NCBI RefSeq assembly: GCF_000092025.1
Contig: NC_003065.3
Coordinates: 1 to 64,000 of the forward strand
From: Agrobacterium fabrum str. C58
GTDB lineage: Bacteria; Pseudomonadota; Alphaproteobacteria; Rhizobiales; Rhizobiaceae
Reading direction: 5' to 3'
Length of the DNA: 64,000 nt
Part shown: piece after piece, positions 1 to 24,836 of the stretch
Layout: every line of letters begins with the position of its first letter
Position numbering within the stretch: the stretch's first letter is position 1
Translations under genes and position numbers: made by a program
Notes under the pieces: model-generated
Database searches by the model: none
What the model was told of the DNA's origin: nothing
Seen by the model: only the letters and a program-made list of their open reading frames with translations

Positions 1-25
1 TGGCAGGATATATTGTGGTGTAAAC
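1..25 (+). repeat. T-DNA left border repeat
   Basis: This is a 25-bp VirD1/VirD2 border. It reads TGGCAGGATATATTGTGG followed by TGTAAAC, the left-border form of nopaline plasmids. It differs from the right border (24812-24836) at the third base and in the TGTGGTG versus TGGCGGG block, and shares the CAGGATATATTG core and GTAAAC end. It marks where T-strand synthesis terminates. Confidence 0.97.
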
Positions 26-386: not shown

Positions 387-1734
387 TCACGGTACAGATT
401 TTCCATCTTGCTCTATAACGTCGAGATGGGGGCAGTGGTGATCAACCCTGCGGGGAACGCCTTTGTTACGCCATTCCCAGAATGACATCTCATCCTCAGA
501 TCGGTCTGATATAACCCAGTCGGCAATCGCTGCTGCATTGCCGGGTATTCCATAGCCACGGCGAATGTACTTTCGTTCATCTGTCTCGCGTGGCATCGGT
601 CTCCCTGTCCTGATGTTAATTGAAAATTCTGCTTTCTCGCCATTTTCTAGTTGAGCGGAGAAATCGTAGCATCTTGTTGCAGTTGCCAGCTTAAGGTGTG
701 GACGCATCTTTCGCACTTCTGGATTGTCCTTCACATAATAGGCAAGGCGTACTGCGGCGTAATCTGCGTTGAAGGCTCTAACGATTTCCGGTTTGTCACA
801 GAGGCCCAGCTGCTCAGGTTTTACCCTGGCCATCACAATGTGAACTGCGACCACTCTCATCGGCTGCCTGAGCATCGAATCGATCCAGATTTTGCCGCCT
901 TCATAAAGGTCCTCGACGGCGATGTCGCTAAGATCGATCAGTTTTGCCAACCTCGGAAGTTCTTGAGGAAAAATCACCGGCATGAGCGCGACGGTTTCCC
1001 TCCAATCAGGCTCAGGGCTAACCTGTTTGACCGCGTCAAAGAACGCTTCGCCGCTGGAGTACTCGAAGGTGTAAAAGAGAAGGACCACACGCTGACGGTA
1101 TTTCGGACGGCGGCTTAGCCAAGCAGTGATAATGTGGGCTTCAAAGTCGCGACCATCTAAAAAGAAGGTTGCGCCCGGATTGACGTCGAAAACCTTATCC
1201 AAAAGAGGCTCAAGAAAAGGGATGATGTCGTTTGTTACGGTGTATGATTCTGTGATCTCACCATTTGAAACCTCTCGAATGATCACCGGTATATTCTTAA
1301 CATCTGCTGAATGGAGTTCTCGGATCAGTCTATCCGGTAACGTGGAAATCCGCCAGGTATTGAAGTCGTGAGACACAACGGGCAAATTGTCAGAAGTTAG
1401 TGTCGTATCCAATTCAGAAAGATTTCGCCGTTCCATCCCTCCGAGGGCAGTCAGTAATGAGGTTTCGGTACACTCCTGTACGCCCTTCCCCAAGTTGTAC
1501 ATGCCCCGGTGTTCTATGACTTGAAAGGCGTTCAAGAAGGTGTGGTACCGAATGACGAGCAAGCACCTCGTCTGAAGTTACGCCTGCTGGGAGATCCCAC
1601 TGGATTTCCCACCTGGGCCATCCCGTACCCTTCACTGGGAAGGGTTTGCGCTGACAGAGTACCTGAAAAAAACCGGTTAAAAACTCGGAATGAACCGGAA
1701 ATCAAAAGAAAGAAAAAGATGAACCTACATCCAT
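387..1734 (-). pseudogene. Gene a: frameshifted agrocinopine-synthase paralogue
   Basis: This is a paralogue of acs (11591-12947) and of the glycerophosphodiester phosphodiesterase (GDPD) fold. It conserves the VIEHRG motif, the ELD metal-binding pair and the SHD motif. The N-terminal part (WDLPAGVTSDEVLARHSV, then ending LLERL) is in one frame down to about 1525. The rest, from FQVIEHRG to the stop, is in another. Alignment to acs shows a net loss of 17 nt between LLERL and QVIEHRG, which causes the shift. The in-frame start of the long downstream frame is only a TTG (1562), useless in a plant. Upstream, the N-terminal frame has no ATG unless a 66-nt intron (1663-1728) is removed, which joins it to ATG GAT at 1734-1729. 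Probably inactive; a sequencing error at the shift is the alternative. Confidence 0.85.
1663..1728 (-). other. Predicted spliceosomal intron in gene a
   Basis: On the minus strand an ATG GAT (1734-1729) is followed by GTAGGT. The 66-nt stretch ends in a run of seven T and CAG, followed by GTACTCTGTCAGCGC. Removing it joins the ATG in frame to VLCQRKP. The acceptor lies exactly nine codons before the GTG (1635) of the conserved N-terminus, the same distance as in acs. The homology between gene a and acs is good downstream of the acceptor and poor inside the interval, as expected for an intron. Confidence 0.6.
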
Positions 1735-10440: not shown

Positions 10441-11383
10441 GAATACACAGCACCTCAATCTTTGGGACAAAAGCGTTGTTAGGACGCTCGATAGCCTGTC
10501 GAACAAGTTCAGCTATGTGCTCGGGCTGGATCTTACCATCATCCTCAATCTCATCAGTCCAAGCACTCATTTTTGTCGCCACATAGCCTGGGCATATTTC
10601 CATTGTTCTAACGCCGGACTCCCACCCAACATGCTGGGCTGTTTTCGTGAGACCTGAGAGGGCATGTTTTGTCATGTTGTAACCAACGAACGAGTTCAGA
10701 ACCCGCTGGCCTGACATGGAGATGATATTGACGATCCGGCCAGATCCACTTTTCGCGAGCTGAGGCAGGCACAGCATGATCATCCTCAGCGGAGCCCCAG
10801 CGTTGATCTTCCACTGTCTCTCAAGCTGCTCATAGTCAATTCCCTCCGCAAGCGCTACCCGTGTTCCATCCCCAGCATTGTTAACAAGGCCATCTATCCT
10901 CCCAAATTTTATCATGGCCGTCGATACCCACTCCTCCATCGTTTGGAGGTCCTCAGCTTCAAAACGTGCGAAGTGAAGAGATTCATTCTGAAACCCAAAA
11001 GTGGCTTCCAGTTTTTCCACGCTACGCGCTCCTAAGCTCAAACGAAAACCACGCCGCATCAGGTTGTCGTCGATGGCCTTGTCTATGCCTCCAGATGCAC
11101 CAGTGACCAAAATCACCCCGCTGTCTCTAGTGTGGACGTTCCAAGATGAACCATCGAATTTGAAGTGGAGAACACACGCGTTACATCTTTGCATCGCGGT
11201 CAGCTCAACCCCGAGCAGTGTAGCAACTACTGAGAGTACACCGCCATGAGAAACGAAAAGAATATTCGACCGGCGGGCATGAGTCAGTGCTCCCGCCACT
11301 CGAGCGGAAAAGAGTTCAGTTTTTTCACAATCAGGGTAATTTTCAACAAACATTTTCCGTGGACCGAGACCACCCTCATGCAT
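10349..11383 (-). pseudogene. Gene f: truncated histidine-phosphatase/SDR reductase chimera
   Basis: 344 codons from ATG 11383. Residues ~1-85 look like the second half of a histidine phosphatase (phosphoglycerate-mutase-like) domain, with FVENYPDCEKTE and NILFVSHGGVLSVV. The catalytic RHG at its N-terminus is gone, though the frame stays open upstream (GERHFG is readable) without an ATG. Residues ~92-320 are a complete-looking short-chain dehydrogenase: TGASGGI, NNAG, the catalytic Ser in ISMSG and YNMTK. The last ~25 residues come from antisense ipt sequence (10349-10440). From memory, phosphatase plus SDR resembles the mannopine-synthesis reductase Mas1', so this may be a relic of a mannityl-opine gene. 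Loss of the RHG half and foreign C-terminus argue against normal function. The SDR alone could still fold. Confidence 0.7.
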
Positions 11384-11590
11384 GCCAAAGTGGCGCTCGC
11401 CACCAATGAGAATTATTGTAAATCTGGCGCGAAATAACAGAGATTTAACACGTCTAAAGTTATCTTCGAAATGTAGAAAATTACATATTCATTATAATGG
11501 ACGACATACATCTCGAATAAAAAGATAGAATACGCGTGAACACATTGATATATCGAAATTAATAAACATATTGTTTCAATTACGAGACTT

Positions 11591-12947
11591 TTATTTTGAC
11601 GTTTCTATATTAAGATCCAAGTGTGGACTTAGATGAGAAACTTCACGATCGATTCCTTGATTTCGCCATTCCCAGATAGCCATTTCATCTTCAGGTCGAT
11701 CTGAGATTACCCAGTCCGCAATTGTTGCCGAATTTCCTGGTGTTCCTTTTCTCCAACGTATGTGTTTCCGCTCGTCTGTCTCATGACGTCGGGCCCTGCC
11801 TGTTTTAATGTCGATGGAGAACTCACCCCGCTCGCCGGAATCCAGGAGGGCTGCGAAGTCATAGCATCTAGTGACCGCAGCAAACTTCAGGTGAGGGCGT
11901 TTAGCTCTAATCATCGTATCCTCCTTGAGGTAATACGCGAGTCTCACTGCGGCTTGATCTGAATCGAAAGCCAACAAGACATCTTTATCGACAACTTGGC
12001 CCAGCAAATTTCTGGTCACCCCGGAGAAAACAACATGTGCCGCCACGATCCTCATGTCCTGCATTAGCATGGAATCAAACCAGGCTTTGCCTGCCAAATA
12101 CAAATCATCGACTGTGGGTTCAGTAACTTGACGCAGACGGGCCAGTCGGCACAGTTCTTCAGGAAAAAGAGCGGGCATCAGGGCGATTGATTTCCTCCAA
12201 GCAGATGCGGGCTGGGCATTTAAAACTGCATCAACGAAGGCACCGCCGTGTGGGTATTCAAATGTATAGAAAAGTACAACAACTCTTTGATGGTATTCCG
12301 GCCGGTGGCTAAGCCAAGCCACAATCACGTGAGCCTCGTAGTTCCTACCGTCTAGGAAAATGGTGGCATCTGAATTAGCCAAAAATACCTTGCTGAATAT
12401 TTCAGTTAACAAAGGAATATGATCAATGGTTTCAAGATACTTGTCTTGTATTATCCCATTTGATACCTCTCGAATAATAACAGGTACATCCTTGATTTTT
12501 GATGAGTGAATTTCATTGAAAAGCTTATCTCCCAACTTTTCAGACACTCGCCAAGTGTTAAGATCATGAGAAACGATAGCTACATTATCTGAAGTTAAAC
12601 AGACGTCCAACTCGCTCAGATTGCGTCCTCCTTGCCCGAGCGCGGCCAACAATGAGCTCGCGGTGCATTCTTGAATTCGTTTCCCTAAATTGAACATTCC
12701 TCTGTGCTCAATGACCTGTAAGGGCAGGTCTTCCTCGAGCCGCTCTAGAAGCCTTGGGACAGAATGGCGTGCGAGAACCTCGGGGGGAGTAACGTTTTCT
12801 GGTAGATCCCAATGGAGTGTCCAAGCCGGCCAAACGGTTCCTTCCACCTTGAGTGGCTTACGTTGACAAAGGACCTGCGCAAAAAAACGGGAGGTTACGA
12901 CACGACATGGTGAGTAAAATATAAAGTACTCTTACATTCACAGCCAT
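11591..12947 (-). CDS. acs: Agrocinopine synthase (predicted spliced gene)
   Basis: Makes the sugar-phosphodiester opine agrocinopine in transformed plant cells. The fold is GDPD-like: in the predicted 431-residue product HRG is at 61-63, ELD at 92-94 and HD at 107-108. The open frame runs from 12931 to 11591, yet its first usable codon in the conserved region is a GTG (12847) and no in-frame ATG exists upstream. A TATATA at 13033-13038 precedes ATG GCT GTG AAT (12947-12936). That is followed by GTAAG and a 61-nt intron-like stretch ending GCAG. Splicing gives MAVN joined in frame to VLCQRKPLKVEGT. Exons: 12947-12936 and 12874-11591. Without splicing, initiation would need a non-AUG codon. 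Function is well supported; the 5' structure is my prediction. Confidence 0.88.
12875..12935 (-). other. Predicted 61-nt spliceosomal intron in acs
   Basis: The donor is AAT|GTAAGAG. Inside are a TTTACTCACC branch-like stretch and a seven-T tract, and the acceptor is GCGCAG|GTCC. Phase 0. The interval contains an out-of-frame ATG (12908) that opens a 16-codon frame ending in TAA, which would hinder translation of unspliced RNA. Gene a has the equivalent intron at the same codon. At 61 nt it is near the short limit of plant introns. Confidence 0.65.
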
Positions 12948-13460
12948 TTGCGAGCTAAAGCGAATTGCCGGGTGCACGGCGGGAATTGCAGCGATTTCGA
13001 TCTAAAAGTGACAAGCAAAATTTGTCGTGGAGTATATAGATATTGCCAAATGGAGTACTTAAATAATGCACAAATTCTGACAGTTTTAGCTAATATTTTA
13101 TTGTGGGGCATAACTTAGCTGGAATCACTCCACGGATAATCAGTCATTGTTATTTTCGGCGTCAATTTGTCGGCCACTATCCGATTAGTTGCGGAAATCT
13201 TCAAATTTTCGACCTAACATCACACCTTTGTCGGTGTTTTCAGCGAAAGGCAGGCCCCATTTTTGAAAAATCCTCCATCAAGATAAATAGTTTAATAGGG
13301 TAAAAGGACGAAATACTTCGGTGTTGAGATTCGACTCAATTAATTTCAAACCAATCCCGTGATTGATGCTATAGAGTCGCCCAATATAAGTGGCATTGAA
13401 GCGCGTTTAATTATTGACTGTGACTGAAATTTACATTCAAAAATAAGTAACTAGTTCGAT
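12948..13460. promoter_or_regulatory. Divergent promoter region of acs and gene 5
   Basis: The acs TATA (TATATA, 13033-13038, read on the minus strand) lies 86 nt before the predicted acs ATG. The gene 5 TATA (TATAAG, 13385-13390) lies about 70 nt before its ATG. A 66-codon plus-strand frame at 13103-13303 shows no family resemblance and I do not call it. Confidence 0.6.
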
Positions 13461-14126
13461 ATGTATCACAGTCGACCGATATTCAACATTATCGACAGCT
13501 CGAATATACAAGATCGGCGTGAACTTAAACTCGTCCTACGTCACACAGAGATTGCTTATCGCAGCTTTGCACAAGAGGATCTCATACCTGCTCAACGTTC
13601 CTGGATGAATTCCATCATTAATACTGATGTTCCCATTGATCCAGCTATAGATGAAGTGGTCAAGCGCTTTTGCGAAGTTGCTTGCTTGCCAGGCCCAGCA
13701 GGTATACCCCTGAATATTATACTCAATGATTCTCTAACGTACGTTTATTGTTCGTTTCAAGCAATGCGAAAGTACGCACACAAGCGATTTTATGACGGCG
13801 TTTCCGACGAAGGCGTAGTCATCTCCACCGTTCCACCCTATGCGGAAGGAATAACAAAAGAAACTATGAGGTCGTGGCACAACAACGTCTGTCAGAATAC
13901 AAGCAATGAAACACATGATTTGGATGCTTATATTGCTTTCCTTCCTACTTCGCTTCAAAATCCAAGTTTCTCGCATATGAAGATCGGCTGCGATAGCTTC
14001 TTAGCGCCATCCCGGGTTGATCCTTTCTGTGTTGAAATAATCGCGGTCGGCAAAGCCCTCTTTCATGATAACGGGCTGAAAAAGAACCCAAGGTGTGGTG
14101 GTCAATGGCTCCCACCTTCTTGTTGA
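13461..14126 (+). CDS. 5: Gene 5 protein (plast family; indole-3-lactate synthesis)
   Basis: 221 residues, MYHSRPIFNIIDSS at the start. Blocks AQRSW, TYVYCSF, VPPYAEGIT, DLDAYIAFLPTS and FLAPSRVDPF match gene b almost one for one. Position beside iaaH identifies it as T-DNA gene 5. From the literature, gene 5 is auxin-responsive and its product leads to indole-3-lactate, an auxin antagonist. Nothing in the sequence alone reveals a catalytic centre. Intact frame, TATA at 13385. Confidence 0.88.
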   Translation: MYHSRPIFNIIDSSNIQDRRELKLVLRHTEIAYRSFAQEDLIPAQRSWMNSIINTDVPIDPAIDEVVKRFCEVACLPGPAGIPLNIILNDSLTYVYCSFQAMRKYAHKRFYDGVSDEGVVISTVPPYAEGITKETMRSWHNNVCQNTSNETHDLDAYIAFLPTSLQNPSFSHMKIGCDSFLAPSRVDPFCVEIIAVGKALFHDNGLKKNPRCGGQWLPPSC

Positions 14127-24811: not shown

Positions 24812-24836
24812 TGACAGGATATATTGGCGGGTAAAC
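24812..24836 (+). repeat. T-DNA right border repeat
   Basis: This 25-bp border reads TGACAGGATATATTGGCGGG followed by TAAAC, the nopaline right border nicked by VirD2. The flank to its right is the one seen in many binary vectors. No clear octopine-type overdrive follows. Confidence 0.98.

Follow-up and report, generated by a model that had tools for sequence, protein, structure and literature searches.

The agrocinopine synthase gene acs (GDPD family, PF03009) lies on the minus strand of the T-DNA of pTiC58, and its 5' end raises a simple question: where does the start codon of this protein come from? The window that we analysed is a stretch of 64,000 nucleotides covering the T-DNA side of this plasmid, with coordinates identical to those of NZ_KY000040.1. 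The long acs frame (427 codons, VLCQRKP..., plus stop; 11591..12874, minus strand) opens with GTC CTT TGT CAA CGT AAG CCA from 12874, and none of the 19 open codons upstream of its first valine (V1) is an ATG, a GTG, a TTG or a CTG. A preliminary description of this DNA had noted the lack of an ATG ahead of the conserved N-terminus, and had proposed that splicing in the plant would restore one. On re-reading, the layout that it gave (ATG, donor, CTCAC, T-tract, GCAG, 61 nt and fusion of the frames) turned out to be exact to the base, and the TATA box that it placed upstream is there as TATATA at 13033..13038, also on the minus strand, a candidate plant TATA box for acs. The coding part of the putative exon 1 reads ATG GCT GTG AAT (M-A-V-N; 12936..12947, minus strand), with only one of its 12 columns variable among five close relatives. 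Next to it lies the predicted 61-nt GT-AG intron of phase 0 (12875..12935, minus strand), with the donor AAT/GTAAGA (GTAAGAG when read from 12935) and the acceptor TTTTTTTGCGCAG/GT, in which seven Ts precede GCGCAG and the last base is 12875. A weak branch-point-like motif, CTCAC (12910..12914, minus strand), is found about 36 nt from the acceptor, and T makes up 44% of the intron interior vs 22% over the 150 nt that open exon 2. When the 61 nt are cut out, the junction becomes AAT/GTC, the ATG comes into frame and the predicted N-terminus is MAVN-VLCQRKPLKV, whereas in the unspliced RNA the frame of the same ATG ends after 29 codons. From this sequence and the comparison with relatives described below, we consider it very probable that acs carries a conserved, phase-0, GT-AG spliceosomal intron that would be needed for its full N-terminus.

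A tblastn search of plasmid records with the 427 codons of exon 2 as the query matched 144 records, of which 126 have full-length homology (at least 80% of the query) to the T-DNA acs and hence belong to the acs family. Among the matches listed, the full-length ones reach down to 37.5% identity and all of them start at residue 1. We read acs 5' ends from 24 of these plasmid records and from loci in genome collections; the remaining records are mostly near copies by their listed identity, or fall outside the matches listed (84 records). The N-terminal motif is present in 59 of 73 loci, which reduce to 18 distinct leaders, or 17 forms when L058 (the C58 leader with a single changed base) is dropped; the 14 loci without the motif comprise one 3'-end fragment (L067) and 13 weak matches of the GDPD type. 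The corresponding protein search scored the best 8000 candidates, and a genus search around one genome (G270) yielded zero acs genes among 16 genomes. A search of solved structures returned just weak phosphodiesterase matches for Acs (E 0.22-0.6). In most of the plasmid records fetched, a rolB-family gene lies upstream of acs.

The intron is present in 13 of these 17 distinct 5' ends, with its acceptor always at one and the same codon boundary, before [VI][LI]xQR. The 13 forms are those of C58, the A. rubi TR3 type, vitis CG118, K1/93, AR125, Q15/94, CFBP2407, pTiBo542, FPH-AT4, AB2/73, AF3.44, the second acs of nopaline-type plasmids and Sinorhizobium meliloti M270. Exon 1 consists of the ATG and one codon in eight forms, and of the ATG and three codons in the five forms of the C58 group. 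The donor is GTA in 12 forms and GTT in one, the acceptor is CAG in all 13, and the two bases that follow are GT in 12 and AT in one. The lengths are 61, 62, 61, 62, 58, 72, 70, 65, 62, 69, 58 and 66 nt, with 73 nt in M270; this range of 58-73 nt is at the short end of plant intron lengths and spans all three classes modulo 3, yet the phase is 0 throughout. In none of the 13 forms does the acs frame contain an ATG from its last stop onward to exon 2. The intron interior is rich in T (41-58% vs 19-29% over the opening 150 nt of exon 2) at 12 of 12 loci, and each of the 13 forms has a YTNAY, a weak motif, 15-50 nt from the acceptor. The signals are not uniformly strong: the T-rich tract before the acceptor is poor in AF3.44 and the Bo542 group; some donors are weaker than the textbook site (GTAGAG in the pTiBo542 group, GTATTC in AF3.44 and GTTAGC in S. 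meliloti); the exon base preceding the donor is T in seven of the 13 forms; and no stop interrupts the acs frame across the entire intron in pTiBo542 and S. meliloti. The preliminary description had recommended comparing other acs 5' ends for conserved splice sites, and in these 13 of 17 forms the position, the phase and the signals are indeed kept.

The GT-AG pattern itself served to recognise the intron forms, and the weight of the argument is carried by shuffles, a position scan and a codon-position test. In dinucleotide shuffles of the 190-nt leader (4000 for each locus), the pattern of an ATG, up to four codons, a GTA and a YAG at the junction occurred in 20 of 4000 for C58 (85 of 4000 when every GT donor is allowed) and in 2-48 of 4000 across 13 loci (12 forms, with the second acs counted twice and S. 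meliloti left out). In the real sequences it marks the junction of all 13 intron forms and of none of the four intronless ones, and occurs elsewhere at 289 of 84,660 plus-strand positions of the 13 loci, though these loci are not independent events and five of them are close kin of C58. The pairwise differences tell a similar story: over exon 2 codons 1-6 they number 91, 56 and 198 at codon positions 1, 2 and 3 (66 pairs from 12 loci; the pairs share history, so the counts are not independent), while in the two 18-nt blocks that precede exon 2 they are flat over the same 66 pairs (206, 193 and 183; 292, 302 and 294). A third-position bias from exon 2 onward, with none before it, indicates that coding evolution begins at the acceptor. 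Among the five close relatives of the C58 group, 48% of the columns vary in the promoter region and 34% in the intron, which has five gap columns, and in exon 2 codons 1-9 the variable positions are 0, 2 and 2 of 9 at codon positions 1, 2 and 3; in the Bo542 group (three sequences) the intron is 35% variable with 18 gap columns, and exon 1 varies in two of six columns as aligned. Since the promoter of the C58 group is even more variable than its intron, intron variability by itself proves little. It is the conservation of position, phase and splice signals, while the interior drifts, that argues strongly for splicing.

Could the leader instead be plain non-coding DNA, with no intron at all and translation starting from GTG 12847 or another start in the open frame? 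That GTG (12845..12847, minus strand), nine codons into exon 2, is the NCBI annotated start of C58 acs (WP_010974821.1); codon 10 is a GTG or an ATG in five of the 12 intron loci listed, and it is the annotated start in seven of 23 annotated acs genes. However, codon 10 is neither ATG nor GTG in the other seven of the 12 loci, the codons upstream of the GTG show conservation of the coding type, Q4 and R5 being the same in all 15 of the proteins aligned, and the four intronless relatives carry an ATG ahead of the motif. The predicted first strand of the protein, residues 4-8, also lies upstream of the annotated GTG (in a confident model with a mean pLDDT of 89.6, the first ten residues averaging 69), so that a start there would exclude Q4, R5 and this strand. 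The annotated starts of the 23 genes scatter over nine offsets, from -15 to +74 codons, all inside or near exon 2 and none at the exon-1 ATG (the PLSDB tables omit joins); this count leaves out L043 and L051, which are frameshifted, and L017 and L046, which are unannotated, but includes L015 and L053, which look broken downstream. An intronless acs translated from some open-frame start thus seems very unlikely in C58, and GTG 12847 in particular is rejected on the conservation upstream of it. A start at exon-2 codon 1 was rejected as well: in 13 loci this codon is variously GTC, GTG, GTT, GTA or ATT, and there is no fixed start codon. No Shine-Dalgarno-like 4-mer was found at -16 to -7 of GTG 12847, nor close to ATG 12947, but 13 of the 14 annotated T-DNA coding sequences lack one at their annotated start, so its absence at the GTG says little. 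Among these 14, acs has the sole annotated start that is not an ATG. Probably, then, the annotated GTG is wrong and bacterial gene-finders have misplaced the start of acs; an intron just behind the start codon would account for the nine different offsets.

Two other readings dispense with the spliceosome. Ribosomal frameshifting, or slippage on the T-tract, might link the upstream ATG to the acs frame, and a run of seven or eight Ts does stand directly ahead of that frame, with the C58 ATG frame off by one. Yet the shift that would be needed varies among the relatives (lengths of 0, 1 and 2 modulo 3), the frame of the upstream ATG ends at varying places (after 5-113 codons), and no such T run directly precedes the junction in CFBP2407, AF3.44, Bo542 or S. 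meliloti. Moreover, the near kin of C58 have one T more or less (61 or 62 nt), a difference that keeps the spliced frame but changes the unspliced one. The occurrence of all three length classes, along with this one-T difference between near-identical plasmids, does not fit frameshifting or slippage, to which we give scarcely any credence. No more credible is the idea that this conserved leader works as a bacterial RNA element, structured or self-splicing, which has its position in a leader in its favor and nothing else. The interior drifts in both length and sequence, and across positions 11000-14000 Rfam gave zero matches at E up to 1. Group I and group II introns were rejected on that search, which found nothing of their conserved catalytic RNA core; 61 nt is in any case far too short for either. 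The spliceosomal reading is the one that we retain.

Four of the 17 forms have no intron: those of pRi1855, pRi2659 (a partial gene), CFBP4996 and C16/80. All belong to the same enzyme family as the intron-bearing acs and share the N-terminal CQR core but, in contrast to them, have no GT...AG intron and instead an in-frame ATG 6-45 nt upstream of the homology start (at -33, -12, -6 and -45 nt). The annotated protein P0012 of R. rhizogenes NBRC 13257, known here by its protein alone, also reads through from a methionine. The preliminary description had counted against splicing any acs relative with a genuine in-frame ATG and no splice signals. Such relatives do exist, but we take them as support rather than refutation because they lie outside the C58 group and start near the splice-predicted N-terminus: the intronless MENDILCQRKP and MQLVCQRKP resemble the predicted MDVLCQRKP, MEVICQRKP and MKILCQRRA. 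In pTiCFBP4996 the start ATGCAG (L012 2995-3000) occupies the place of the acceptor TGCAG of the others; possibly, the intron was lost there when a start codon arose inside the old 3' splice site. The pRi1855 leader (L010 2968-3000) holds GTAAGG...CTGCAG within 22 nt, inside the translated sequence, perhaps a shrunken and exonised intron. Both leaders look like routes of intron loss. In sweet potato, Acs P0006 and P0010 start with a methionine at exon-2 codon 1 (MLCQRKP and MLCHRKP, P0010 carrying H in place of Q4), where an ATG may have arisen, and consequently the splice is not visible in any plant gene model examined.

The window contains a second copy of acs next to the left border (387-1734, minus strand). 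Its exon 1 would be ATG GAT (1729..1734), followed by a predicted 66-nt intron (1663..1728; GAT/GTAGGT ... TTTTTTTCAG/GT) and an exon 2 (387..1662) that is frameshifted in C58 but unbroken on some other nopaline-type plasmids. Both acs copies are within the T-DNA borders, the left repeat being at 1..25 (plus strand, 0 mismatches) and the right one at 24812..24836 (plus strand, 3 mismatches). Upstream of acs in L012, L013, L014 and L045 there is a GTAAGCGCTTACG-like sequence, which we take to resemble the plant ocs enhancer element and which would be fitting for expression in plants. The acs of S. meliloti M270 is in a different setting, on accessory plasmid B (L073 2925-3004; L074), and was fetched after the hypothesis had been set. 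It has a predicted intron of 73 nt, and no T-DNA border with up to 3 mismatches was found in the surrounding 48 kb. The available part of PMC5994717 infers that this strain is able to synthesise agrocinopines and reports that the T-DNA transfer genes are missing. With an intron in its acs and no border in 48 kb, this inference deserves a test, as the intron puts in question whether a Sinorhizobium carrying acs itself makes agrocinopine.

How might such a gene work? The transformed plant cell would transcribe the T-DNA acs, presumably from about 30 nt downstream of the candidate TATA box; the plant spliceosome would then remove 12935-12875 as a small U2-type GT-AG intron, and translation from ATG 12947 would give MAVN-VLCQRKP..., an agrocinopine synthase of 431 residues. 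In the bacterium, the same ATG on unspliced RNA would lead into the dead-end frame of 29 codons, and full-length Acs should not form. That acs needs plant splicing, as the preliminary description claimed, finds support in the comparison, but its further claim, that the protein is made only in eukaryotic cells so that opine synthesis is blocked in the bacterium, goes further than the comparison does, and acs genes that lack the intron survive on both Ri and Ti plasmids. A bacterial lock is therefore not essential, and silencing of acs in the bacterium is a plausible purpose of the intron, though not a proven one. The intron may guard against expression in bacteria, may raise expression in plants (intron-mediated enhancement) or may bring no benefit, and enhancement is an equal candidate to the lock as the reason for its retention. 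Enhancing introns in plants act near the start codon, and this one adjoins it. We see an even chance that the intron is real but that its main value lies in enhancement, or that it is a neutral relic, and not in the lock. Mapped on a protein tree with 23 rows (13 intron-bearing, the second acs being counted twice, four intronless and six unknown; the root is not known), the intron needs four changes, of which well-supported branches impose at least three. Shuffled labels perform equally well in 500 of 500 cases, so intron presence is not clustered and, again, the lock appears dispensable. That six lineages (the C58 group, the second acs, CFBP2407, the Bo542 group, AF3.44 on a long branch and S. 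meliloti) have kept the intron at one exact position argues, on the other hand, against pure neutrality. As for the enzyme itself, the available parts of the sources state that the T-DNA acs gene is known to make agrocinopine (PMC4124706) and that Acs of N. noctiflora expressed in E. coli makes agrocinopine A (PMC10674353).

The simplest reading of one exact position in all the intron forms is a single ancestral intron with several losses, and by this sequence comparison the intron probably dates back to the ancestor of the T-DNA acs genes. An ancestral intron would suggest either that acs has passed through a eukaryotic genome or that it gained the intron while in bacteria. The most far-reaching version would be that a spliceosomal intron has been fixed family-wide since the common ancestor, that start codon and protein are united nowhere but in a eukaryotic nucleus and the gene is thereby plant-locked, and that it arose through a eukaryotic passage or a gain in bacteria by selection in plant cells; this we put forward tentatively, as rather less likely than a more modest history. 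Acs-like proteins have been reported in fungi, according to the part of PMC5606197 available. Our literature search found no mention of an acs intron in what it covered; the original acs paper (Paulus and Otten 1993) falls outside that coverage, and an earlier mention is possible. The word "intron" is absent from the main text, as far as it was available, of PMC10674353, PMC8554961, PMC5606197, PMC9763466 and PMC4124706; the introns mentioned in the available parts of PMC6715720, PMC12568777 and PMC11351324 belong to other genes, and other introns are likewise meant where such partial texts name agrocinopine synthase alongside introns. The novelty of the acs intron is hence provisional. If the splicing reading is right, the start codon of a textbook Ti-plasmid gene moves, and the proteins derived from most acs annotations are without their conserved N-terminal residues. 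The intron-plus and intron-minus acs alleles on bacterial plasmids would also form a natural set for testing how a bacterial replicon gains, loses and makes use of a eukaryotic intron.

The known system with which acs can be compared is rolA, the intron of which sits in an untranslated leader; that of acs, by contrast, would set the start codon apart from the main part of the protein, and it recurs across a family. In Agrobacterium rhizogenes (Magrelli 1994 and Pandolfini 2000, as cited in PMC1878477) the rolA intron of the T-DNA, according to the available part of that source, measures 85 bp, is removed by splicing in plants and also works as a promoter in bacteria. The predicted acs intron may differ in this respect too: a scan for the consensus found no sigma-70-like site in 12875-12935. 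The preliminary description had invoked rolA as a precedent for a T-DNA intron spliced in plants, and in this it agrees with PMC1878477: in both cases a T-DNA gene on a bacterial plasmid carries a short intron, spliced in plants for rolA and predicted to be so for acs.
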